Below are positions 40,083-58,477 of a stretch of 58,477 nt of DNA, in pieces. Under the pieces are notes generated by a model that saw only the letters and a program-made list of their open reading frames with translations, ran no database searches and was not told the origin of the DNA. Within the stretch, counting starts at the first letter, position 1; each line of letters starts with the position of its first letter. A program made the position numbers and the translations under genes. Source of the DNA: Acuticoccus sediminis (GTDB lineage Bacteria > Pseudomonadota > Alphaproteobacteria > Rhizobiales > Amorphaceae); contig NZ_QHHQ01000014.1 in NCBI RefSeq assembly GCF_003258595.1, forward strand, positions 1 to 58,477, in the 5' to 3' direction.

Positions 40083-41504
40083 ATGTTCGAGAATGTCGAC
40101 GCGGTGATGCTGGCGCGGATCCAGTTCGGATTCACGATCGCCTTCCACTTCGTCTTCCCCGCCTTCACGATCGGGCTGTCGAGCTTTCTGGCGGTGCTCA
40201 ACGGCATGTGGCTCTGGACGCGCGACGACGCCTATCTCCAGCTCTGGAAGTTCTGGGTGAAGATCTTCGCCGTCGCTTTCGCGATGGGCGTCGTGTCGGG
40301 CATCACGATGAGCTACCAGTTCGGCACGAACTGGGCCGTCTTCTCCGACAAGACCGGCCCGGTGCTCGGCCCGCTGATGGCCTACGAGGTGCTGACCGCG
40401 TTCTTCCTGGAGGCCGGCTTTCTCGGCATCATGCTCTTCGGCCGCGAGCGGGTCGGCGACACGCTCCACATGATCGCCTGCCTGATGGTCGCGGTCGGCA
40501 CCGCGATCTCCGCCTCCTGGATCCTCAGCGTGAACTCCTGGATGCACACGCCCGCCGGCTACTCCATCGCCGAGAACGGGCAGTTCGTGCCGGAGGACTG
40601 GTGGGCGATCATCTTCAACCCGTCCTTCCTGCCACGCTTCGCCCACACGCTGACGGCCGCCTACCTCACGACCGCCTTCATCGTCGGCGGTGTCGGCGCG
40701 TACCACCTCCTCAAGGGGCGCGCCGGCAACAAGAGCGTCGCGACCATGTTCTCGATGGCGATGTGGATGGCCGCCCTCGTGGCGCCGGTGCAGATTTTCC
40801 TCGGTGACGCGCACGGTCTCAACACGCTGGAGCACCAGCCGATGAAGATCGCCGCGATGGAGGGGCACTATCCCGACTATCCGGACGGCGCGCCGCTCTT
40901 CCTGTTCGGCATCCCGAACGAGGAGGAGGGACGGATGGACTATGCCGTGTCCATCCCCAAGCTCTCCTCGCTGATCCTGAAGCACGATCTCGACGCTCCG
41001 CTCGACGGGCTCAACTCCGTCCCGCGGGAAGACAGGCCACCGGTCGCGATCCCCTTCTTCGCCTTCCGCGTGATGGTCGCCATGGGCTTCCTCATGCTCG
41101 GCATCGGCGCGTGGAGCCTGTGGAGCCGGTATCGCGGCACGCTCTACACGAACCGCTGGCTTCATCGCGCCGCCGTGGTGATGGCGCCCTCCGGCCTCAT
41201 CGCCGTCCTCGCCGGCTGGATGACCACCGAGGTCGGCCGCCAGCCCTACACGGTCTACAACGTGCTGCGGACGGTCGACAGCGTGTCGCCGGTGGCTGCG
41301 CCAGCCGTCGGCGCGTCGCTGCTCGCCTACATCGTCATCTACTTCATCGTGTTCGGGGCGGGCGTCTTCTACATCCTGCGCCTGATGGGCAAGACGCCGA
41401 CACCGCGCGACAAGGGCGTGTCGAAAGAAGACGGGCCGATCCGCACCGCAGGTATTACCCCGGCCGCGCAGGTCGCGGGCCCCGGCAACCTTCCGGTGGA
41501 GTGA
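40083..41504 (+). CDS. cydA: bd-type (cyanide-insensitive type) quinol oxidase subunit I
   Basis: This 473-aa integral membrane oxidase subunit carries the hemes. It has the early ligand region AFHFVFPAFTIG (His near 21) and the GFLGIMLFGRERVG helix. The short Q loop is of the CIO type, and GWMTTEVGRQPYTVYNVLRT follows. It reduces O2 to water with quinol and does not pump protons. bd oxidases resist metal and cyanide stress better than heme-copper oxidases, which fits the metal island. Confidence 0.94.
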   Translation: MFENVDAVMLARIQFGFTIAFHFVFPAFTIGLSSFLAVLNGMWLWTRDDAYLQLWKFWVKIFAVAFAMGVVSGITMSYQFGTNWAVFSDKTGPVLGPLMAYEVLTAFFLEAGFLGIMLFGRERVGDTLHMIACLMVAVGTAISASWILSVNSWMHTPAGYSIAENGQFVPEDWWAIIFNPSFLPRFAHTLTAAYLTTAFIVGGVGAYHLLKGRAGNKSVATMFSMAMWMAALVAPVQIFLGDAHGLNTLEHQPMKIAAMEGHYPDYPDGAPLFLFGIPNEEEGRMDYAVSIPKLSSLILKHDLDAPLDGLNSVPREDRPPVAIPFFAFRVMVAMGFLMLGIGAWSLWSRYRGTLYTNRWLHRAAVVMAPSGLIAVLAGWMTTEVGRQPYTVYNVLRTVDSVSPVAAPAVGASLLAYIVIYFIVFGAGVFYILRLMGKTPTPRDKGVSKEDGPIRTAGITPAAQVAGPGNLPVE

Positions 41505-41509
41505 GACCC

Positions 41510-42532
41510 ATGGGACTCGAGATCAGCCTCAACCTCACCGTGGCCTGGGCGTTCCTCCTCGCCACCGCGATCTTCATCTACGTCCTGCTCGACGGGTTCG
41601 ACCTCGGCCTCGGCATCCTCTACCCGTTCTTTCCGCAGAAGCGGGACCGCGACCTTCTGATGAACTCGGTCGCCCCGGTGTGGGACGGCAACGAGACGTG
41701 GCTCGTGCTGGGCGGAGGCGGCCTCTTCGCCGCCTTCCCCCTCGCCTACTCGATCCTGATGCCCGCGCTTTACGCGCCGGTGATCGCGATGCTGCTCGCG
41801 CTCGTGTTCCGGGGCGTCGCGTTCGAGTTCCGCTGGCGCACGGTGAGGTGGCGGGCCGCGTGGGACTGGGCCTTCATCGGAGGATCGACGATGGCCGCGC
41901 TGTGCCAGGGGATCATCCTGGGGGCGATCCTGCAGGGCGTCGCCGTGGACGGGCGCAGCTACGGGGGCGGATGGCTCGACTGGCTCTCGCCGTTCTCCGC
42001 CGTCACCGGCGTCGCGGTCGTGTGCGGCTACGCCCTCCTCGGCGCGACCTGGCTCAACATGAAGCTGATGGGCGAGCCGCAGGAGAAGGCGCGCTCCCTC
42101 GCCTGGGGCTTCGCGCTGGCGACGGTCGCCTTCATCGTCATCGTCAGCCTGTTCACGCCCTATCTGGAGGCCGGATACTACGACCGCTGGTTCCGGTGGC
42201 CCAACGTGATTTACGCCGCGCCGGTGCCGATCGTGGTCGGCCTGCTGACGCTGTTCCTGTTCCGCGCTCTCCACGTCCACCAGCATGACAAGTGGCCGTT
42301 CCTGCTGGCGCTCGCCCTCTTCCTGGTGACGTTCATCGGCCTCGGCATCTCGATCTGGCCCTACGTGATCCCGACCGAGGTGACGATCTACGACGCGGCC
42401 TCGCCATACAAATCGCAGCTCTTCATGTTCGTCGGCGCGGTGGTGCTGATCCCGATTATCCTCGCCTACACGGCCTATTCCTACTGGGTCTTCCGCGGCA
42501 AGCTGGACCCGGACAAGGGCGGCTACCACTGA
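41510..42532 (+). CDS. cydB: bd-type quinol oxidase subunit II
   Basis: This 340-aa partner of CydA starts at ATG 41510, 5 bases after the cydA stop. It has about eight helices with the family signature YVLLDGFDLGLGILYPF near residue 24 and APVWDGNETWLVLGGGG near 60. The long frame that starts at 41111 is a shadow over cydA. It ends in a TGATG overlap with the next small gene. Confidence 0.94.
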   Translation: MGLEISLNLTVAWAFLLATAIFIYVLLDGFDLGLGILYPFFPQKRDRDLLMNSVAPVWDGNETWLVLGGGGLFAAFPLAYSILMPALYAPVIAMLLALVFRGVAFEFRWRTVRWRAAWDWAFIGGSTMAALCQGIILGAILQGVAVDGRSYGGGWLDWLSPFSAVTGVAVVCGYALLGATWLNMKLMGEPQEKARSLAWGFALATVAFIVIVSLFTPYLEAGYYDRWFRWPNVIYAAPVPIVVGLLTLFLFRALHVHQHDKWPFLLALALFLVTFIGLGISIWPYVIPTEVTIYDAASPYKSQLFMFVGAVVLIPIILAYTAYSYWVFRGKLDPDKGGYH

Positions 42533-42819: not shown

Positions 42820-43232
42820 TCAGCATTTGTTGCGCGGCGTGGGCTGGTCGGCTCGCCGTGTCCCGTCGGGGCGTTCCCATACAGCCGCCGCCGACTCTTG
42901 AAGCACCCGATCGAGCTCGCCCGAGCCCACTGCCACGACAGCTGATCCAAAATCATCAAGAGCCGCTGGAAGCTCTTCAGCTTCGTCATGGAGCCAAATG
43001 CCGATTACCCGCAGGCTGGCCCCCGCAAAGGCGCGTACTCGCTCTGCCAAAGTTCGCTGTCAGCCTCGACTGCCGGCAGGCAGACCACGCCGATCGTGTC
43101 GCTGCCGGACAGCGCCGAGAGGTCCGCCGGCATACCGAACACGACATCAAATCCGCGCGCTTCGAGTATGTCTCGGATCCGCACCCGGTCTTCGCCGCTC
43201 AGCGTTTCATTCAGAACATGGGCCTGCGTCAT
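42820..43232 (-). pseudogene. Conserved hypothetical gene, broken by a one-base frameshift
   Basis: Two overlapping frames join into one plausible ~137-aa protein. The first runs from ATG 43232 (MTQAHVLNETLSGEDRVRIR) to SELWQ; the second continues with ERVRAFAGASLRVIGIWLHD to the end at 42820. The switch is near 43043, where CAGAGC would read in frame if one G were present (CAGGAGC). The strand/helix pattern, with TIGVVCLP then RVIGIWLHDEAEELPAAL, recalls TIR-like or SLOG-like nucleotide-binding folds, but this is a guess. Sequencing error is possible. Confidence 0.6.
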
Positions 43233-43442
43233 CCCTCTATCTCCCGCAGCTGCTACTTAAGTCGGTATGGCTCGACCGATCGCAGGTAGTGAATGGTGAG
43301 CTAGGCATGGTTCACCTTTTGTTCAAGGGGCGGTCGCACAGCGCGGGCAAATTCGCTTCACCGCAGCCGCTCAGGTTGAATGTGCGGAGAAAGCGGTGAG
43401 TCAGAATGGATTCAGATTGGTAGCGCGTTGGTGCTGTCCAAT

Positions 43443-43468
43443 CTTCATGAAATAGTAAAGTCATGAAG
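43443..43468. promoter_or_regulatory. Inverted repeat overlapping the RHH gene start
   Basis: CTTCATGA (43443-43450) and TCATGAAG (43461-43468) form a perfect 8-bp inverted repeat that overlaps the ATG at 43463. A small RHH protein encoded at this point would be expected to repress its own operon from such a site. Confidence 0.6.
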
Positions 43469-43672
43469 ACTAAGACAGCACCGATGTTGACCGACATCTA
43501 CGACAAAGAGCCGACGCTGCAGCTCTTTCTGCCGGTGGCGACCAAACGCGAGATCACGCTGCGGGCGGCTGAATCCGGCGAGACGATTCGCGTGATCGTC
43601 CTACGCGCGCTTGATGCCTATGGCATTCATGTGCCGAAGGAAGCGCTGGTCGATCGGCGGAAATCACCATGA
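43463..43672 (+). CDS. Small ribbon-helix-helix-like DNA-binding protein
   Basis: This 69-aa protein has the RHH layout: a strand FLPVATKREITLR, then helices with SGETIRVIVLRALDAYGI. It is probably the autoregulator of the MazG-UDG operon: an inverted repeat covers its start and its stop overlaps the next start (ATGA 43669-43672). No partner toxin is evident. Confidence 0.7.
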   Translation: MKTKTAPMLTDIYDKEPTLQLFLPVATKREITLRAAESGETIRVIVLRALDAYGIHVPKEALVDRRKSP

Positions 43673-44826
43673 AAGCCTTCACGATTGCCGCATACCAGGC
43701 CGAAGCGCTGAAGACGGACCAGCGGCGCCGCGGTGATCTCGGCCTCGCCTTTCCGCTTCTAGGCCTCTTTGGGGAGACCGGCAGCCTGCTCAGCGAGGTG
43801 AAGAAGAAACAACGCGATCCCATTGCCTATCTTGGCTACAAGGAGTCCGTGGTCGAGGAGCTGGGCGACGTGCTCTGGTATCTCGCCGCACTGGCTGCCC
43901 GCGCCAGACTCGGCCTCGACGAATTGGCAGTCAACCTCGACCGCAGTCTCGCGGATTGGCAATCGGCAGGCTCTGCTGAGCTAAGCTTCGCCGCCATCGA
44001 AGCGCCCGCCGTCGGGGTGTCCGCCTCACCGTCACCGGCTTTCGAGCAGACCCTGCTGAAACTGGCCGGCGAAGTCGGCCTATTAATGACCGATCATGCG
44101 GCTGGACGGCTTGAGCGCAATCGCTCCGCACTCAAGGGCCGTCTGATCGGCGTGCTGCGGGCGCTGCGGGCCGCCGCTCATGAGGCCGGAATCACACTGG
44201 AGGACGCGGCCAGAGCAAATCTGGCGAAGATCTTCGATCGCTGGCCTGTCGACCGGCATTACCCCCCGCTGTTCGACGAGGCGTTTCCGGCCCATGAGCA
44301 GCTGCCGCGGCAGCTCGTCATCGACATCGCAGAGGTCGAGCTGAACGGCAAAACCATGGCCAGACTGACCTGCGAGGGCCGGCCCATCGGCGATCCCCTG
44401 ACTGACAATCGGGACGACGATGACGATTACCGCTTCCATGATGTATTCCATCTGTCCTATGCCGCTCACCTCGGATGGTCGCCGACTCTCCGGCGACTGC
44501 TCCGGGTCAAGCGCAAGAGCAATCCCCGGGTCGATGAAGTGCAGGACGGTGCGCGCGCCGTCCTGATCGAGGAAGGGATCGCGACATGGATATTCAACCA
44601 TGCGCAACGGCTAGCCCTGTTCGAGGGGATTTCCACCCTCGACTATGGGCTGCTCAAGTCCGTGCGCCGCTTCGTTGCCGGATACGAAGCCGAAACCTGT
44701 CCCCTATGGCTGTGGGAGGAAGCAATCTTGAAGGGCTATGAAGTATTCCGCGCCGTGCGCGTGCATCGCGGCGGCCGCGTCAGCATCGACCTTGAGGCCC
44801 GTTCGATCCGGTACGATCAGCCATGA
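43669..44826 (+). CDS. MazG-like nucleotide pyrophosphohydrolase with a C-terminal extension
   Basis: This 385-aa protein has a MazG-type all-alpha NTP pyrophosphatase core at about 1-90: GLFGETGSLLSEV and SVVEELGDVLWYLAAL give the EExxE and EExxD metal ligands. A second, degenerate copy lies at about 125-195 (LAGEVGLLM to NLAKIFDRWP). The last ~190 residues (DYRFHDVFHLSYAAHLGW, then VLIEEGIATWIFNHAQRL) form a conserved helical domain of unknown role. MazG enzymes hydrolyse (d)NTPs to (d)NMPs and often sit in defence loci. The start overlaps the RHH stop. Confidence 0.85.
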   Translation: MKAFTIAAYQAEALKTDQRRRGDLGLAFPLLGLFGETGSLLSEVKKKQRDPIAYLGYKESVVEELGDVLWYLAALAARARLGLDELAVNLDRSLADWQSAGSAELSFAAIEAPAVGVSASPSPAFEQTLLKLAGEVGLLMTDHAAGRLERNRSALKGRLIGVLRALRAAAHEAGITLEDAARANLAKIFDRWPVDRHYPPLFDEAFPAHEQLPRQLVIDIAEVELNGKTMARLTCEGRPIGDPLTDNRDDDDDYRFHDVFHLSYAAHLGWSPTLRRLLRVKRKSNPRVDEVQDGARAVLIEEGIATWIFNHAQRLALFEGISTLDYGLLKSVRRFVAGYEAETCPLWLWEEAILKGYEVFRAVRVHRGGRVSIDLEARSIRYDQP

Positions 44827-45497
44827 GTGCCGCCGTCGATGCCATTGTCCAGGCGCTGAGCAGCGTTGAACTGGAGAATGTCTTCAATCCATATGCCGAG
44901 CGATGCCCGCTGCATGATCGAAGCGATGCGCCGCGCCGGCGGCAGCAGAACCTTGCCATGAGTCTGGAAACGGCGGTCGACCTCAAGGTCCGCACGATCT
45001 GGATTGCCCGCGACCTGGGCTATCGCGGCGGCCGCCGCACCGGCTTGGCGCTGACTGACGAGGTCCATCTCGATTCCTATAGCGTGCTGTTCCAGGGTCT
45101 GCGCGTGGCCAAGGCCACCAAAGGCCCCGCCATCGGCGAACGCACGGCAACCGTCATCTGGCAGATGCTGCAGCGGCTGGCCGAACCCGTCTTCCTCTGG
45201 AACGTCTTTCCGCTCCACCCGCATGAGCCGGGCGCGCCGATGAGCAACCGTTGCCATACGCGTCGCGAGCGGCAAGCCTGCGCTCGCTTCCTGCATGACA
45301 TTATGGATCTTCTGCAGCCGGAAACCGTCATCGCAATCGGTGGCGATGCCCACCGCGCTGTCGATGAACTGGGGGTCAGTGCCATCCAGGTTCGCCACCC
45401 GAGCTATGGCGGGCAGAACACTTTTATCGCGCAGATCGAGCAGGCCTACGCCCTGCCGCCCTGCCGGACGCCCGATCTATTCACGCAGCCTGCGTGA
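44823..45497 (+). CDS. Uracil-DNA glycosylase superfamily protein
   Basis: This 224-aa protein has UDG fold motifs: motif A IARDLGYRGGRRTGLALTDE, equivalent to GEAPGYRGC of family 4/5 enzymes but with the acidic Glu replaced, and motif B RHPSYGG near 196. Between them lies the NVFPLHPHEPG loop. It would remove uracil or a related base from DNA, or only bind it given the altered motif A. It overlaps mazG by 4 bases and the convergent thymidylate-synthase-like gene by 17. Confidence 0.8.
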   Translation: MSAAVDAIVQALSSVELENVFNPYAERCPLHDRSDAPRRRQQNLAMSLETAVDLKVRTIWIARDLGYRGGRRTGLALTDEVHLDSYSVLFQGLRVAKATKGPAIGERTATVIWQMLQRLAEPVFLWNVFPLHPHEPGAPMSNRCHTRRERQACARFLHDIMDLLQPETVIAIGGDAHRAVDELGVSAIQVRHPSYGGQNTFIAQIEQAYALPPCRTPDLFTQPA

Positions 45498-46248
45498 GCA
45501 AGGCCGCCTGGCAAGCCGCAATCAAAGCCTGCACCTCCCGCTTTTTGCCCCCGGCGAGATCGAGTTCGGCATGGGTGGACTGGATGGTCAGGCCGCCGAG
45601 GGCGAATCCCGCCTCCCGCGCGATGAACTGCTGGAGGCGGCCGAGCCCGATCAGATTGCCGAGCGTTCGCGCCACATAATGGTGGTTCCGGTACACGGCC
45701 ATCATATGCAGCCGCCCATCGGGCGCAGGCTTGAGTTCGATGAAGCTGAGGCACTGCCGTCCTCGCGGCTTGATCAGATCACGGGCCGGATCGAACAAGG
45801 CGATCTCATAGCACTGTTTGTAGTTCCACGCCCCGTCGGCCTTGAGCTGCCGGAGCATCCGGATGTTCTCTGCAATCTGATCCACATGGCTCTTGTCCCG
45901 GGTTTCCCAGTGAACCATGCGCTCGAAATAGCGGCCCCAGCCGCCCTGCCGGCACATACGCTTGGCATAGACGGCCAGATAGCGCGCCCGTAGCCCCTCA
46001 ATGCCGTCGCCTCGATCGAGGCTGGCCGGAAAGATCGTATTGGCTACGGTTGCGATGCCCTGCTGGCCATGGGCCTTCAAATACCGGTCGACGAGGTCGA
46101 TCGCCATCTCCTCCTCGGAAGACACGGCCACCGGGTCTTCGATGTGGAGCATCAGGCCGCCCAGCTCGCCCTCGCGGCTCAACCGCTCGGCCGCCTCAAG
46201 CCAGGCGCGTACCGGCGTTGGCGCCGCTGACATCGGATTGTAGAACAT
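45481..46248 (-). CDS. Thymidylate-synthase-fold enzyme
   Basis: This 255-aa protein matches the C-terminal half of ThyA: GRQCLSFIELK has the nucleophilic Cys (C166), DGRLHMMAVYRNHHYV has the phosphate-binding Arg (R187), TLGNLIGLGRLQ has the Asn that reads uracil in ThyA (N198), and STHAELD has the His (H226). The Asp of the ThyA RSCD motif is replaced and the HxY tail is altered. The fold also makes hydroxymethyl-dUMP/dCMP for DNA hypermodification; Asn at 198 favours a uracil substrate. Start ATG 46248 has a strong AAGGAG site. It overlaps the protease gene by 53 bases. Confidence 0.75.
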   Translation of the reverse strand: MFYNPMSAAPTPVRAWLEAAERLSREGELGGLMLHIEDPVAVSSEEEMAIDLVDRYLKAHGQQGIATVANTIFPASLDRGDGIEGLRARYLAVYAKRMCRQGGWGRYFERMVHWETRDKSHVDQIAENIRMLRQLKADGAWNYKQCYEIALFDPARDLIKPRGRQCLSFIELKPAPDGRLHMMAVYRNHHYVARTLGNLIGLGRLQQFIAREAGFALGGLTIQSTHAELDLAGGKKREVQALIAACQAALLTQAA

Positions 46249-46921
46249 CACCGTCTCCTTCCTTGATGACAAAGGCGCCGACCAGTCGCGGAGCCAGACA
46301 GTCCTCCCTCACCCAGGCATGGCCCTCATGCCCCCAGCGGGAACCCCAGGAATTGCGCAATAGCATCACCGGCTCGCCCGCGTGACGGCCGTGTCCGACG
46401 ATCACCATGGCGTGCCCGTCGTTCCGATCGATCGGCTCGTGGCGATCCGGCGCCAGCAGCACCTCGGTGCCGATAAGGGTCCAGTCCGCCGGAAACCGGT
46501 ACGTCCCGGACAGGAAGACCCCGACCACCACGGGGCGCCCGGCAAGAAGCCCGGCTCGGATGCCGTGCAGACCTGGCGCACAGCTGCTGGACTCGCAGGT
46601 GAAGAGCGATGAGACCCCGCCCGGCGGCTGCCATGACGCAGGATCGGGCCAGGCGGCTGAGTACGGCCAAGCCGCCTCTACCGGCTGTCCCGTGCCGCGC
46701 AGGATCGCCTGTGTATCCGGCATCGTGGTGCCGCAGCGCGGTCCCGTCCCAGCCCGCCTAGCGGCATGAAAGTAGAGCCATTCGACGCACAGCCAGTCAG
46801 GGTGGCCGCGCGCATGCCGGTGCGCATCGGAAGCGGCAAACGATAGGCAGGTCGGGCGGCGGCCCTGATCGCGAACCGTGCCCAGGTCTCTACGCATGTC
46901 GGTCGAAATCTGCAGCGTCAT
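46196..46921 (-). CDS. Papain-like (C1) cysteine protease
   Basis: This 241-aa protein has a complete papain triad: Q19 and C25 in VRDQGRRPTCLSFAAS, H170 in DGHAMVIVGHG and N190 in LLRNSWGSRWG. There is no signal peptide, so it is cytoplasmic, which is unusual for papain relatives. Its start overlaps the stop of the ImmA gene (ATGA). In this operon it could process a host or phage protein, or the acyl-carrier-like protein; this is inference. Confidence 0.88.
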   Translation of the reverse strand: MTLQISTDMRRDLGTVRDQGRRPTCLSFAASDAHRHARGHPDWLCVEWLYFHAARRAGTGPRCGTTMPDTQAILRGTGQPVEAAWPYSAAWPDPASWQPPGGVSSLFTCESSSCAPGLHGIRAGLLAGRPVVVGVFLSGTYRFPADWTLIGTEVLLAPDRHEPIDRNDGHAMVIVGHGRHAGEPVMLLRNSWGSRWGHEGHAWVREDCLAPRLVGAFVIKEGDGDVLQSDVSGANAGTRLA

Positions 46922-47943
46922 GGGGCCGCCAACCGCTCCAGCCGCTGCCGCTCGAATAACCCCGCCTCGTCACTGGTCGCGGTCCGGCAATGCAGGGTCA
47001 GCGTGTGCGGATCGTCTTCGGGATCCCAGGGACGGCACTCCTTCAGCCGCAGTGTCTCGGCCAGCGGGCGCTCCGCCTGCGCCAGTATCCGCCGCACGGT
47101 CGGGGCGCCAATCTGGCCCTCAGGCACGGGTTCCCGGCCGTCCTTCAGAATCACGAAGCCGGCGTCCCACAATTCATCGAAGGTCCAGACATAGCCGGCC
47201 CCGGTATCTTCCCGCAGGCGCAGCAGGAACAGGTCGTCCCGACCGGCCTCGACCACCGCCCCCTCGTCCTTCTCGGTCAGATGCCAGACATCGCTGCGCC
47301 GGGGGTTCGGCAATGGCTGACCGTCTAGCAGGCCCAGCTTGAGGCTCTGCGGCCGGGTCTTCAGGAGCTGCTGACGCAGCCCGGCGCCGATCACCTTCTC
47401 GCGCTCAAGACCATAGACCGCGCCGCTGAAGCTGGTGCCGAAGCGCAGGGAGGCCTGATAGACATTCTCCGGGCTGGAAAAATGCTCCGGCCCCCAGCCC
47501 TGAACTTCCATCTGCGCCGCGATCAGATGCGGCGGCAGCAGGAAATAGGACGCAAACGCATCCGCTTCCCGTTCCTCCGGCGGCACCAGCCTGAAGGCCC
47601 GGCCATCGGCGATCGGTCCGCGGCGCAGGATGCCGTCGTCATCGGCATGGGGATCGTGCTGCAGAATCAGATGGCCGAGTTCATGCGCCGCGGTGAACCG
47701 CTGCATACCGAGCGGGCGCTCGGTATTCAGGATGATACCCGCCATCCCGCTCTGCTTCATGAAGGCGCCGAGCAGTTTCTCCATCGGCTTGAACATCAGC
47801 GCCGCGCCGGTGCGGTCGATGCTGTCGAACACGTCGACCCGCTGTACCCGCTTCCCTTCCCGGTCGAGGCCGAGATCATGGAGCAGGCCGAGCGCCGCCT
47901 TCATGCCGCGGAGGATGGAGATACGATCCTGCTGGCGGGTCAT
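46918..47943 (-). CDS. ImmA/IrrE-type zinc metallopeptidase
   Basis: This 341-aa protein has HELGH at 87-91 (RFTAAHELGHLIL) and a downstream Glu in READAFASYFLLP, the ImmA/IrrE zinc site. The C-terminal ~190 residues form an additional domain of unknown function. Such proteases cut XRE-type repressors, as ImmA does with ImmR in ICEBs1. It lies 3 bases after the XRE gene, so it is probably the anti-repressor of this operon. Confidence 0.9.
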   Translation of the reverse strand: MTRQQDRISILRGMKAALGLLHDLGLDREGKRVQRVDVFDSIDRTGAALMFKPMEKLLGAFMKQSGMAGIILNTERPLGMQRFTAAHELGHLILQHDPHADDDGILRRGPIADGRAFRLVPPEEREADAFASYFLLPPHLIAAQMEVQGWGPEHFSSPENVYQASLRFGTSFSGAVYGLEREKVIGAGLRQQLLKTRPQSLKLGLLDGQPLPNPRRSDVWHLTEKDEGAVVEAGRDDLFLLRLREDTGAGYVWTFDELWDAGFVILKDGREPVPEGQIGAPTVRRILAQAERPLAETLRLKECRPWDPEDDPHTLTLHCRTATSDEAGLFERQRLERLAAP

Positions 47944-47946
47944 CGG

Positions 47947-48303
47947 TCAACCCTTCGACTTCGCCTGCAGGAACTCGGCAAATCGCTGCAACTCCTGCCG
48001 GTCACCGTCCGACAGGGCCGATGCCGTGCGGGCGAGAAACGCCACATCGGCCGGCACGGCCGGTTCATCGCCGGTGAAGAACTGCACCGGGCGCTGATAC
48101 AGATGCGCTAGCTTCTTCAGCTCAATGGCGCTGACCGACCGCTTGCCCTTCTCGATATCCGATACGCCGGTGCGGGGGATGCCAAGATGCGTTGCGACCT
48201 GCTCCTGCTTCAGGCCGATATATTCACGGGCTTCTTTCAGCCTTGCGCCCAGAACCTGACCCTCGTCGGCCGGGCCGGCAAAGCCGAGTGGCTGTGTGCT
48301 CAT
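47947..48303 (-). CDS. XRE-family repressor
   Basis: This 118-aa protein has an XRE helix-turn-helix at about 20-75 (LKEAREYIGLKQEQVATHLG then TGVSDIEKGKRSVSA) and a short helical tail. Start ATG 48303 lies in an ATGA overlap with the acyl-carrier-like gene. Pairing with the ImmA-type peptidase suggests control by proteolysis. The palindrome at 48629-48645 is the likely operator. Confidence 0.9.
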   Translation of the reverse strand: MSTQPLGFAGPADEGQVLGARLKEAREYIGLKQEQVATHLGIPRTGVSDIEKGKRSVSAIELKKLAHLYQRPVQFFTGDEPAVPADVAFLARTASALSDGDRQELQRFAEFLQAKSKG

Positions 48304-48584
48304 GATACCTGTGCTCCCTCCTGTGGCTGCTTCTCCGTCCAGAGCGTCCGGCATTGCGCGAGAATGCTGCGGACGCAGGTCTCGGCATCATCGAAGCCGC
48401 CGGGCGGCATGACCGTTTCCGGCAGAGTGATGCCCAGTTCCCGCTCAACCCGGAGCGTCACCATCACCACCACCAGCGAGTCCACTTCCGGCCGCCAGCC
48501 ACCCTTGGTTGGTGGCCGGTCTGCCGGCGCACGGGCGATCTCATCGCGGATCGCCGCTTCGATCTCTTTCTCCGGAAACTGCAC
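48300..48584 (-). CDS. Acyl-carrier-protein-like small protein
   Basis: This 94-aa protein, start GTG 48584, has the ACP pattern: a helix, then EVDSLVVVMVTLRVERELGI with DSL where ACPs carry the phosphopantetheine Ser (Ser36), and ITLPETV in the third helix. If real, it would need a host phosphopantetheinyl transferase. Why an ACP-like protein sits with nucleotide enzymes is unclear; it could be a ubiquitin-like or carrier partner. The family call is by motif only. Confidence 0.6.
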   Translation of the reverse strand: MQFPEKEIEAAIRDEIARAPADRPPTKGGWRPEVDSLVVVMVTLRVERELGITLPETVMPPGGFDDAETCVRSILAQCRTLWTEKQPQEGAQVS

Positions 48585-48628
48585 GGCATCCTCTGCGTGT
48601 CGCCTTCTCAGACGTCATATATGGACTA

Positions 48629-48645
48629 TGTCTGAATTTCAGACA
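48629..48645. promoter_or_regulatory. 17-bp palindrome, likely XRE operator
   Basis: TGTCTGAATTTCAGACA, perfect with 8-bp arms around one base. It lies in the 65-base gap upstream of the acyl-carrier-like gene, overlapping a candidate -35 (TTGTCT on the - strand). A TCAGAC half-site recurs at 48608-48613. This suits autorepression by the XRE protein. Confidence 0.7.
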
Positions 48646-48649
48646 AGGC

Positions 48650-49345
48650 CTATGACAGCATGATCTGCGCGACGAGGATCAGGAAGCCGACAATCACGGC
48701 GACGGCCAGGCCCACAAACACATTGACCAAGGTGCTCAAGCTGTTTGTCCTGGACTGGATCTCGTTCAGCTTGGCGTCGAAGCGCCTTTCCAACTCCCTG
48801 TAGTCTTCCGAGAGTCGCTGCAAGCTCTGAATCTCGCCGCTGATCCCGGTCAGCATGTCCGGTTTGATTCCGGCGAACCCAGCTTCTTCCTTCTTCATGG
48901 TGGTAACGCCGTCGAGGGCTGCATACCAGATCAGAAACAGTGGCTGACCGCGCTGAAGATGCAGCGGCCGAGGCCCGGCATTGAGAACCGAAAAGAGCAA
49001 GTGCCCATCATACCCCGGATCGACGTGGAACCCGGAGATGTTGATAAGACCATTAAACTTCAGCTTAGCCTTGATAGATATAAATGCTAGCGCATCGTCC
49101 GGAACCTTGATCCGTTCTTCAGTCACCAGGAAGGCAAATTGCCCCGGCGGAATTGTGAAGCTGTCACCTTGCGCCAATTTGCGCTTAGTATGTCGATCCG
49201 GAGCTAAAATCTGCCGGTCTGGACTTACATAAATCTCTTCGCCAATGCGCAGCGTGTAGGCAGCACAGTCGATTGCCACCTCGGCATAGGGCTCAACGAG
49301 TTCAGGTAGCCTTTGCTTTAGCGTCTCTCCACTCCAGAACGCCAT
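48650..49345 (-). CDS. dCTP-deaminase/dUTPase-fold protein with a membrane anchor
   Basis: This 231-aa protein has the trimeric dUTPase/Dcd fold: ISIKAKLKFNGLINISGFHV then DPGYDGHLLFSVLNAG and LHLQRGQPLFLIWY. At the Dcd catalytic Glu position (in IVLEFYN) it has Ser or Phe, and the SSxxR motif is changed, so it may bind nucleotides without deaminating. A coiled coil at about 170-200 (LQRLSEDYRELERRFDAKL) precedes one C-terminal membrane helix. A membrane-tethered Dcd-like protein is unusual. It has its own upstream region and the next gene a separate operator. Confidence 0.75.
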   Translation of the reverse strand: MAFWSGETLKQRLPELVEPYAEVAIDCAAYTLRIGEEIYVSPDRQILAPDRHTKRKLAQGDSFTIPPGQFAFLVTEERIKVPDDALAFISIKAKLKFNGLINISGFHVDPGYDGHLLFSVLNAGPRPLHLQRGQPLFLIWYAALDGVTTMKKEEAGFAGIKPDMLTGISGEIQSLQRLSEDYRELERRFDAKLNEIQSRTNSLSTLVNVFVGLAVAVIVGFLILVAQIMLS

Positions 49346-57968: not shown

Positions 57969-58477
57969 GTGGACGTCGTGGGGAAGACCGCACGCGACGT
58001 TCTCGTCCTCGCGCTGATCGGGCTCGCTATCGGGCTCATGCTGGGGGTGCTCGCTGCCGGTGGCTACACGACCTGGCGCAGCGGCGGCGACATCGCCGAT
58101 GTCGGCTTCGGAACGTTCTTCGAGCACGCCCCGTGGATCGTCGGCCGGTTTGGCGAGCCCTTCCGAACGGGTCTCATCGTCCTCGCCGGCGTCGCGGCCT
58201 TCTTCGTCGTGGCGGTCCCGGCCATCGGCCACAAGCCCAAACGCACGAGCCACGGCTCGGCCGAGTGGGCCAAGCCCCAGGAGCTGCGCAAGGCCGGTCT
58301 CACGGCCAGGCTCGAGGACGTGCGCGGACCGATCTACGGCAAGCTGGCGCGCCCTCGATCCGCGGGCGAGTTCTTCACCTCGCATGATATTCCGCACAGC
58401 CTGATCGCGGCGCCGACCGGATCGGGCAAGGGTGTCGGCGTCGTGATCCCGACCCTCCTCACCTACAAGGGCTCGGT
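57969..58477 (+). CDS. virD4: VirD4/TraG-type coupling protein, N-terminal part (continues at base 1)
   Basis: The true start of virD4 is GTG 57969, two bases after the virD2 stop. The first 112 codons up to 58304 lead into base 1. They encode two membrane helices (about 10-31 and 67-88) with a short periplasmic loop, as in VirD4, then HGSAEWAKPQELRKAG, the family's SxxW pattern before the ATPase core. The last 173 bases duplicate bases 1-173. Confidence 0.92.
   Translation, partial: MDVVGKTARDVLVLALIGLAIGLMLGVLAAGGYTTWRSGGDIADVGFGTFFEHAPWIVGRFGEPFRTGLIVLAGVAAFFVVAVPAIGHKPKRTSHGSAEWAKPQELRKAGLTARLEDVRGPIYGKLARPRSAGEFFTSHDIPHSLIAAPTGSGKGVGVVIPTLLTYKGS
58305..58477. repeat. Terminal redundancy, right copy
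   Basis: Same as bases 1-173. Removing one copy closes the circle and restores virD4 as one gene of 710 codons plus stop. Confidence 0.93.

Follow-up and report, generated by a model that had tools for sequence, protein, structure and literature searches.

A candidate conflict cassette of exchangeable modules on a probable conjugative plasmid of Acuticoccus sediminis

Introduction

What might several nucleotide enzymes, an acyl carrier protein (ACP) and two proteases do together under the control of two regulators? The question is raised by a nine-gene cassette on a contig of 58,477 bases (the whole of which we call the window) within the 7.76 Mb genome of Acuticoccus sediminis. Three plus-strand genes, for RHH-like, MazG and UDG proteins, are faced by six on the minus strand, which encode a thymidylate synthase (TS)-like protein, a papain-like C1 protease, an ImmA-type metallopeptidase, an XRE repressor, the ACP and a DCD protein.

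We propose, at about even chances, that the cassette is an inducible conflict system, most likely anti-phage or anti-plasmid, built from exchangeable modules. Set out below are the recurrence of the gene set, the exchange of its core between different settings, and a predicted inhibitor domain carried by ImmA. Were the proposal true, enzymes of the kind used for phage DNA hypermodification would form an interchangeable immune core in bacteria and archaea; one that plugs into different arms, either TIR/Thoeris or a papain-like protease restrained by a chagasin domain. An ImmA-type switch would then both cut a repressor and restrain a protease, and carrier proteins may have a part to play in immunity. 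Few genes are needed to test each step of the mechanism directly.

Results

Gene organisation

The features of the cassette, with the matches on which their naming rests (Pfam accessions begin with PF; ORF, open reading frame), are as follows.

43443-43468, unstranded: palindrome CTTCATGA-N10-TCATGAAG, spanning the RHH start; likely RHH operator (from the sequence)
43463-43672, plus: small RHH-like protein (label given by eye), likely autoregulator of the MazG-UDG operon
43669-44826, plus: MazG pyrophosphohydrolase fused to MazG_C (PF18722 5.5e-81, PF03819 4.3e-07)
44823-45497, plus: UDG-superfamily protein (PF03167 38.1 bits, cut-off 24.3)
45481-46248, minus: TS-fold protein with Cys nucleophile (ORF open to TTG at 46272)
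46196-46921, minus: papain-like C1 protease, no signal peptide by eye (PF00112 3.5e-08; PDB papain family 9.1e-08)
46918-47943, minus: ImmA/IrrE (M78) metallopeptidase with C-terminal chagasin domain (PF06114 1.7e-12, PF09394 3.3e-06; PADLOC capP 5.9e-18)
46996-47238, minus: chagasin (I42) domain of ImmA, residues 236-316 (PF09394 27.7 bits, cut-off 27.2; amoebiasin-2, 3m86, 9.2e-07)
47947-48303, minus: XRE repressor (PF01381 1.6e-12; PADLOC capH 4.2e-14; ORF open to ATG at 48354)
48300-48584, minus: acyl carrier protein (PF00550 0.0069, below cut-off; PDB ACP 3.8e-07 with a family profile)
48629-48645, unstranded: palindrome TGTCTGAATTTCAGACA, upstream of ACP; likely XRE operator
48650-49345, minus: DCD/dUTPase-fold protein with a C-terminal hydrophobic helix (by eye), optional partner (PF22769 5.8e-18; PDB dCTP deaminase 8e-17)

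Packing is tight, with 4-base overlaps at four junctions (RHH/MazG, MazG/UDG, C1/ImmA and XRE/ACP), 17 bases shared by UDG and TS, and a TS/C1 overlap of 53-77 bases that is set by the TS start chosen; gaps of 3 and 65 bases separate ImmA from XRE and ACP from DCD, respectively. A preliminary description, made from the sequence alone, had named these genes, overlaps and both palindromes, all of which are present. It had also drawn the unit from 42820 to 49345: the nine genes do lie there, but the portion from 42820 to 43462 holds no element that recurs across the compared loci.

Distribution of the set

With the TS-like protein as query, 21 plasmid records were found and 17 regions fetched, four near-identical sphingomonad records being left out; a genome collection searched with a TS-like alignment gave 177 relatives, of which the best 80 were used, and viral contigs gave one. 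The resulting 99 loci (window included) were scanned with in-house profiles on ORFs, whose E-values derive from small databases, and grouped at 80% TS identity into 49 lineages, which form the basis of the counts below.

XRE and ImmA each accompany the TS-like gene in 48 of the 49 lineages, in agreement with the earlier suggestion that the two operons make one unit. ACP follows with 46, C1 with 44 and MazG/MazG_C with 41, then UDG (37), RHH (13), HMUDK_hel (11), DCD (8) and AcpS (6). An additional ACP is visible by eye in L099, and in L100 the contig ends before the ACP. The sole lineage without the set, L019, carries only a degenerate TS. In all, the set is kept in 48 lineages, the window's included, across seven phyla (Pseudomonadota, Planctomycetota, Bacillota, Acidobacteriota, Actinomycetota, Cyanobacteriota and Halobacteria), with distant bacteria and one archaeon among the carriers; a lack of co-occurrence outside this plasmid, which had been named as grounds for refutation, was not seen. 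TS and UDG occur together in 37 lineages, and in 36 of these their genes are convergent; this, together with the recurrence of the set, rules out two unrelated operons that happen to be neighbours. DCD, which had been counted within the unit, is optional, and its presence in so few lineages rules it out as a core part.

Four loci that lack MazG share a family of ~190 residues (L006:9724-10224, L013:4142-4948, L020:8264-8914 and L088:9764-10378), possibly a MazG substitute judging by a weak profile match to MazG (E 0.064).

Reverse searches in plasmids gave 18 records with C1, 16 of which coincide with the 21 TS records; those beyond the TS set are from Deinococcus (a lone, larger C1) and Priestia. 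The ImmA search gave 23 records; it shared 20 with the TS search and also brought in Sinorhizobium NXT3 (L117), where the set takes its HMUDK version, lacks C1 and has a TS that is more distant; the other non-TS records were Streptomyces laculatispora, with MazG_C ~1.2 kb off, and Bacillus pumilus, in an unrelated phage-like setting. UDG and MazG_C were found in 45 and 34 plasmid records, respectively, and therefore both also occur outside this set.

The mobile-element setting put forward in the preliminary description is borne out by 14 of the 21 plasmid records carrying the TS-like gene, which are typed as conjugative or mobilizable. A phage origin of the cassette was also considered, and is rejected: no match to the TS-like gene was obtained by tblastn in 50,697 phage records, and just 1 of 34 candidate viral-contig stretches with such a gene was confirmed. 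Across 11 sphingomonad records from several genera, a stretch of 18.7 kb is shared at 99.8-100% identity, and this speaks for recent transfer, contamination being the less likely explanation. The records with this near-identical stretch (L042-L059, L069) are from Sphingopyxis, Novosphingobium, Sphingobium, Aurantiacibacter and Hankyongella.

The MazG_C and UDG/HMUDK_hel core

The UDG family is well conserved (RDLGYRGGRRTG in 36 and RHPSYGG in all of 37 lineages), and its slot is filled in 11 others by HMUDK_hel (PF18723, E to 5e-114), whose members are, by eye, without a P-loop kinase domain. The two are mutually exclusive, with no lineage having both and one having neither. On a TS tree of 46 lineages (L019, L020 and L100 left out; a quick tree with long branches) the swap requires at least four changes, two of them forced by well-supported branches, and so a single event is not favoured.

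The same alternation is seen when MazG_C is taken as the starting point. Across 385 evenly sampled alphaproteobacterial genomes, 15 MazG_C loci occur in 13 genomes, and each holds exactly one of the pair (UDG in 10, HMUDK_hel in 5). Six of them carry the XRE-ImmA-TS arm (the window, L150, L151, L154, L156 and L157; that of L156 is incomplete, its TS being a fragment and its ACP without a match), and seven carry TIR and Nmad2 instead (L146, L147, L148, L152, L155, L158 and L159, the TIR match of the last being weak at 6e-05). The arm is undecided for L149 and L153, which lie at contig ends. The two arms are together in none of the 15, and UDG and HMUDK_hel each occur with either arm; two further HMUDK_hel loci (L160, L161) are without MazG_C.

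Among ten inspected plasmid UDG loci without a TS-like gene, five have TIR, two have a metallophosphoesterase facing MazG and three have neither; in two of the ten the neighbour is Nmad2 by Pfam, with TIR matching ThsB (3e-64) and SIR2 matching ThsA (6.8e-182). L112 and L113 are Thoeris-like islands; each holds several TIR genes, and a ThsB-type TIR is followed there by Nmad2, MazG_C and UDG. The window proteins are 67.7% (UDG) and 73.3% (MazG_C) identical to TIR-context copies from Sulfitobacter S190, the window UDG being nearer to some copies from its own context (Acuticoccus 95%, L021 86%). RHH relatives lie upstream of MazG in the 13 lineages counted above and in one TIR-context locus (L111). 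MazG_C also matches a phage family, phrog_229, at 4.5e-51.

On these comparisons, MazG_C with UDG or HMUDK_hel is a movable core, joined here to an ACP-XRE-ImmA-C1-TS arm and elsewhere to TIR and Nmad2. By analogy, the exchangeable modules point to defence: Thoeris acts against phages, and the core is shared with Thoeris-like TIR/Nmad2 loci. The connection to phage defence that the preliminary description had suggested is supported in this way. The window set differs from those loci in having its own arm where TIR, SIR2 and Nmad2 sit, and none of its nine proteins gave a PADLOC match to ThsA or ThsB, which were found only in the other MazG-UDG loci. The suggestion that four enzymes act as one sensor of the nucleotide pool finds no support in that form, because DCD is optional and UDG replaceable.

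At their C-termini the metallophosphoesterases carry a TS-like domain (E 5.4e-06 by profile comparison). One of ~730 residues adjoins the cassette in six lineages (L031, L078, L040, L022, L011 and L023), and faces MazG-UDG at L120:2440-4629 and L123:3214-4629.

Metallopeptidase, repressor and operators

ImmA keeps its HE[LF]GH motif in 47 of 48 lineages, and the best PADLOC matches of ImmA and XRE are the capP and capH models listed above, with RmrA of RosmerTA matched too. As in CapP/CapH, an M78 HExxH protease adjoins an XRE repressor, and a palindrome, predicted here to be bound as an operator, precedes the downstream operon that would be controlled; the differences are the I42 domain of the window ImmA and an operon that holds ACP, C1 and TS-like genes. 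No CD-NTase or other Cap match from CBASS was obtained with PADLOC among the nine window proteins.

The TGTCTGAATTTCAGACA palindrome has its only plus-strand match in the window, with up to 3 mismatches allowed, at its place upstream of the ACP gene. In 39 of 46 lineages a motif of TGTCNGANNNTCNGACA type lies between -250 and +150 of the ACP ORF start. Elsewhere, 791,533 bp gave 21 matches (up to 2 mismatches), and the motif thus recurs near the ACP more than by chance; it is absent from seven lineages, archaeal, cyanobacterial and Streptomyces loci among them. This palindrome is likely the operator of XRE. It is not present at the MazG-UDG operon of the window, which has a palindrome of its own, found in the same order and spacing at 3 of 13 other loci compared (L021, L040, L060), with a related pair in L004. 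The RHH motif is accordingly less general than that upstream of ACP, and the RHH-like protein has no Pfam match.

As for what sets off the switch, CapP is activated by single-stranded DNA (ssDNA) and cuts CapH (PMC13373217), and its relative PprI is likewise described as ssDNA-activated (PMC10904395). The latter would also suit a plasmid response to DNA damage, in which ssDNA from transfer activates ImmA; MazG, UDG and DCD would then clean away uracil or damaged nucleotides, and the protease would clear blocked proteins. The homologies of UDG, MazG and DCD and the plasmid location fit such a hygiene role; it leaves unexplained, however, the ACP, the divergent TS-like protein and the exchange with TIR/Nmad2, and we consider it very improbable.

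The C1 protease and its candidate inhibitor

I42 is a fold of inhibitors of papain-like proteases, and it is this that the preliminary description overlooked at the C-terminus of ImmA, as it did the interchangeability of the MazG_C and UDG/HMUDK core. The catalytic motifs of C1 are kept in most lineages (Cys in 43, His in 43 and RNSWG..W in 41 of 44 lineages), and ImmA and C1 are on the same strand in 44 of 44 lineages having both. Pfam finds I42 in 8 of 8 ImmA proteins tested that have a neighbouring C1 (E 0.03 to 2.7e-13) and in 0 of 6 that do not. Within the domain, GYxW is present in 44 of 44 C1-bearing lineages and RPW in 40 of 44, as against none of four C1-less lineages for either.

Chagasin touches the protease through loops L2 (NPTTG), L4 (GxGG) and L6 (RPW/F) (PMC2607524), and the GYxW and RPW of ImmA probably correspond to its contact loops L2 and L6; GYxW would be the edge of L2, and the NPTTG motif itself is not kept. 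The likeness to chagasin/ICP lies in the I42 match, the GYxW and RPW motifs and an adjoining partner of the papain family. What differs here is that the inhibitor forms part of a metalloprotease, is cytoplasmic and lies next to the protease presumed to be its target.

Given the I42 domain at its C-terminus, ImmA is likely a brake on C1 besides being the protease predicted to cut the repressor, and the restrained C1 is likely the effector. For the brake, the biochemistry of the I42 family is a stronger argument than the covariation of C1 and I42.

An inhibitor beside its protease also invites comparison with plasmid addiction. C1 would then be the toxin and ImmA-I42 the antitoxin of a toxin-antitoxin module, with the nucleotide enzymes as passengers; the inhibitor fold, the shared strand, the 4-base ImmA/C1 overlap in the window and the matches of ImmA and XRE to RmrA of RosmerTA all suit this idea (ImmA and XRE are separate proteins here, unlike in RosmerTA, and ImmA carries I42). 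Against it, XRE, ImmA, ACP and the TS-like gene persist without C1 in 4 of 49 lineages and in L117, and passengers such as TS-like, UDG and MazG would not last across seven phyla, which makes an addiction module quite unlikely.

TS-like enzyme and acyl carrier protein

The TS fold assigned in the preliminary description stands as a prediction: the AlphaFold2 model (pLDDT 91.7, pTM 0.92) has, as its 50 best PDB matches listed, nothing other than TS or MilA, a CMP hydroxymethylase (best E 4.8e-11). The protein is nonetheless far from a true ThyA, scoring 12.3 bits against a PF00303 cut-off of 24.3. Its Cys nucleophile is invariant (47 of 47). In a weak single-sequence alignment with the ThyA that the host has on its chromosome (E 0.0047), Arg190 and Asn201 align with E. 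coli Arg166 and Asn177, which we take to be the phosphate-binding and base-binding residues, respectively, and the equivalents of E. coli His147, Asp169 and Tyr209 are Leu, variable and Asp. Because these three are not kept, the protein is unlikely to be an ordinary TS. A second, more ThyA-like TS, recognised by annotation or by falling in one cluster, lies near the cassette at L011:13082-14134, L012:13053-14012, L117:2383-3438 (Pfam 1e-19) and L099:6477-7505.

What had been called an ACP-like protein is, by its profile and motif, a genuine acyl carrier protein, which had gone unrecognised. It is a profile of 38 relatives that gives the PDB match listed above, and Asp35-Ser36 is invariant in all 38, Ser36 (48477-48479) being the predicted phosphopantetheine site; the best match of the fold search is an ACP at E 0.14, with none at or below 0.001. 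AcpS homologues lie near the ACP in the six lineages counted above, and a phosphopantetheinyl transferase in the Haloarcula locus.

The phage pathway for thymidine hypermodification has a TS homologue, a MazG-like protein and a member of the 5-hydroxymethyldeoxyuridine (5-hmdU) DNA kinase family, all of which have likenesses here. The cassette could be a mobile element's hypermodification kit, in which TS-like, kinase, MazG and HMUDK/UDG proteins produce and handle a thymine modified at C5, by which the element would mark or shield its DNA, the ACP being an acyl donor and ImmA/XRE and C1 only regulating. Besides the kinship of HMUDK_hel, the TS fold and MazG_C to phage thymine-hypermodification enzymes, this would suit the frequent carriage by conjugative plasmids and the dTMP-kinase-like genes beside ACP in five lineages (L013 by annotation; L032, L062, L101 and L099 by eye). 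The set, however, is cellular and plasmid-borne, the TS-like gene being in no phage record and one confirmed viral contig, and it has an ACP and a protease switch; its core alternates with TIR/Nmad2 modules, which are immune, and the UDG that often takes the HMUDK slot is expected to remove, rather than decorate, bases. We therefore regard such a kit as unlikely.

Discussion

Returning to the inducible conflict system that we favour, we propose a speculative model for its operation. At rest, XRE would occupy the TGTCNGANNNTCNGACA palindrome and repress its own operon, with the chagasin domain of ImmA keeping C1 inactive, such that early synthesis would be harmless. Infection would produce ssDNA or a modified nucleotide, and we infer that ImmA might thereby be activated, as CapP and PprI are, to cut XRE and allow expression of the operon. 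The nucleotide enzymes would then work on uracil/thymine nucleotides and bases with C5 groups: the TS-like protein through its Cys nucleophile, the MazG domain by removing pyrophosphate, and UDG or HMUDK_hel by engaging the base in DNA, whilst holo-ACP may supply or hold an acyl or aminoacyl group. Together they might either build an odd nucleotide or detect and excise that of the invader. With ImmA spent, cut or bound elsewhere, C1 would be freed to degrade proteins, stopping the cell or the invader.

A more specific chemistry can be imagined, though it is distinctly improbable: that the TS-fold enzyme has abandoned folate and that acyl- or aminoacyl-ACP donates to C5 of a deoxyuridine nucleotide, with the acylated pyrimidine triggering the response or poisoning the invader. 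ImmA-I42 would read this state and free the papain-like protease, as an inhibitor-gated cysteine-protease ‘death switch’ run by a prokaryotic cell.

Several observations weigh against the conflict reading. The presence or absence of C1 amounts to one change on the TS tree, and therefore the covariation of C1 and I42 is close to one event and does not favour many independent gains of the pairing; moreover, of the eight I42 matches tested, four fall below the Pfam cut-off and four above. Five lineages are C1-less (Streptomyces, two cyanobacteria, a viral contig and Sinorhizobium L117), and therefore the rest of the set can work without the protease. MazG is absent from 8 of 49 lineages, two of them cut by contig ends and one being the degenerate L019, and among the 30 commonest flank clusters listed, reading by eye showed no recurring enzyme that would load the ACP with an acyl group. 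The TS-like protein occurs in 7 of the 385 alphaproteobacterial genomes and is therefore rare and patchy. Of the 16 annotated plasmid regions (L004-L018 and L020), 10 have a defence-type neighbour (a gene of caspase, CHAT, Shedu, AbiEii, VapC, RES/Xre or restriction type); the count is uncontrolled, and was not used as evidence.

The set probably belongs with nucleotide-modification conflict systems and is not categorically new; for its putative inhibitor-gated protease and its ACP, no counterpart was found. PADLOC gave no match at E<=1 for RHH, MazG, UDG, TS, C1, ACP or DCD, and we found no description of the set as a whole in the literature, a comparison that did not extend to the gene layouts of DefensePredictor; both agree with the preliminary statement that no described system has this set. 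The nearest published work is that on DefensePredictor (2026; PMC13092281), compared here by its text, whose systems involve TS, dNMP kinase, 5-hmdU kinase, NMAD and metallophosphoesterase (MPP) proteins: its validated defence loci hold TS and 5-hmdU kinase domains, and MazG, MazG-C, UDG, dUTPase and NMAD proteins are among those it predicts to be defensive. In its main text the words papain, chagasin, acyl carrier, metallopeptidase, ImmA, ACP, TIR and Thoeris do not appear (PMC13092281). The window set may overlap one of its predicted systems.

As to its genomic setting, the contig carries VirB9/10/11-, TraG- and relaxase-like ORFs, and a TraG-like reading frame is split across its ends (57969-58475 and 1-1797), from which we take it to be, probably, a circular conjugative plasmid; its ends have no terminal repeat of 20 bases or more. 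Just to the left of the cassette, at 40083-42532, are two ORFs that resemble, by eye, subunits of cytochrome bd oxidase.

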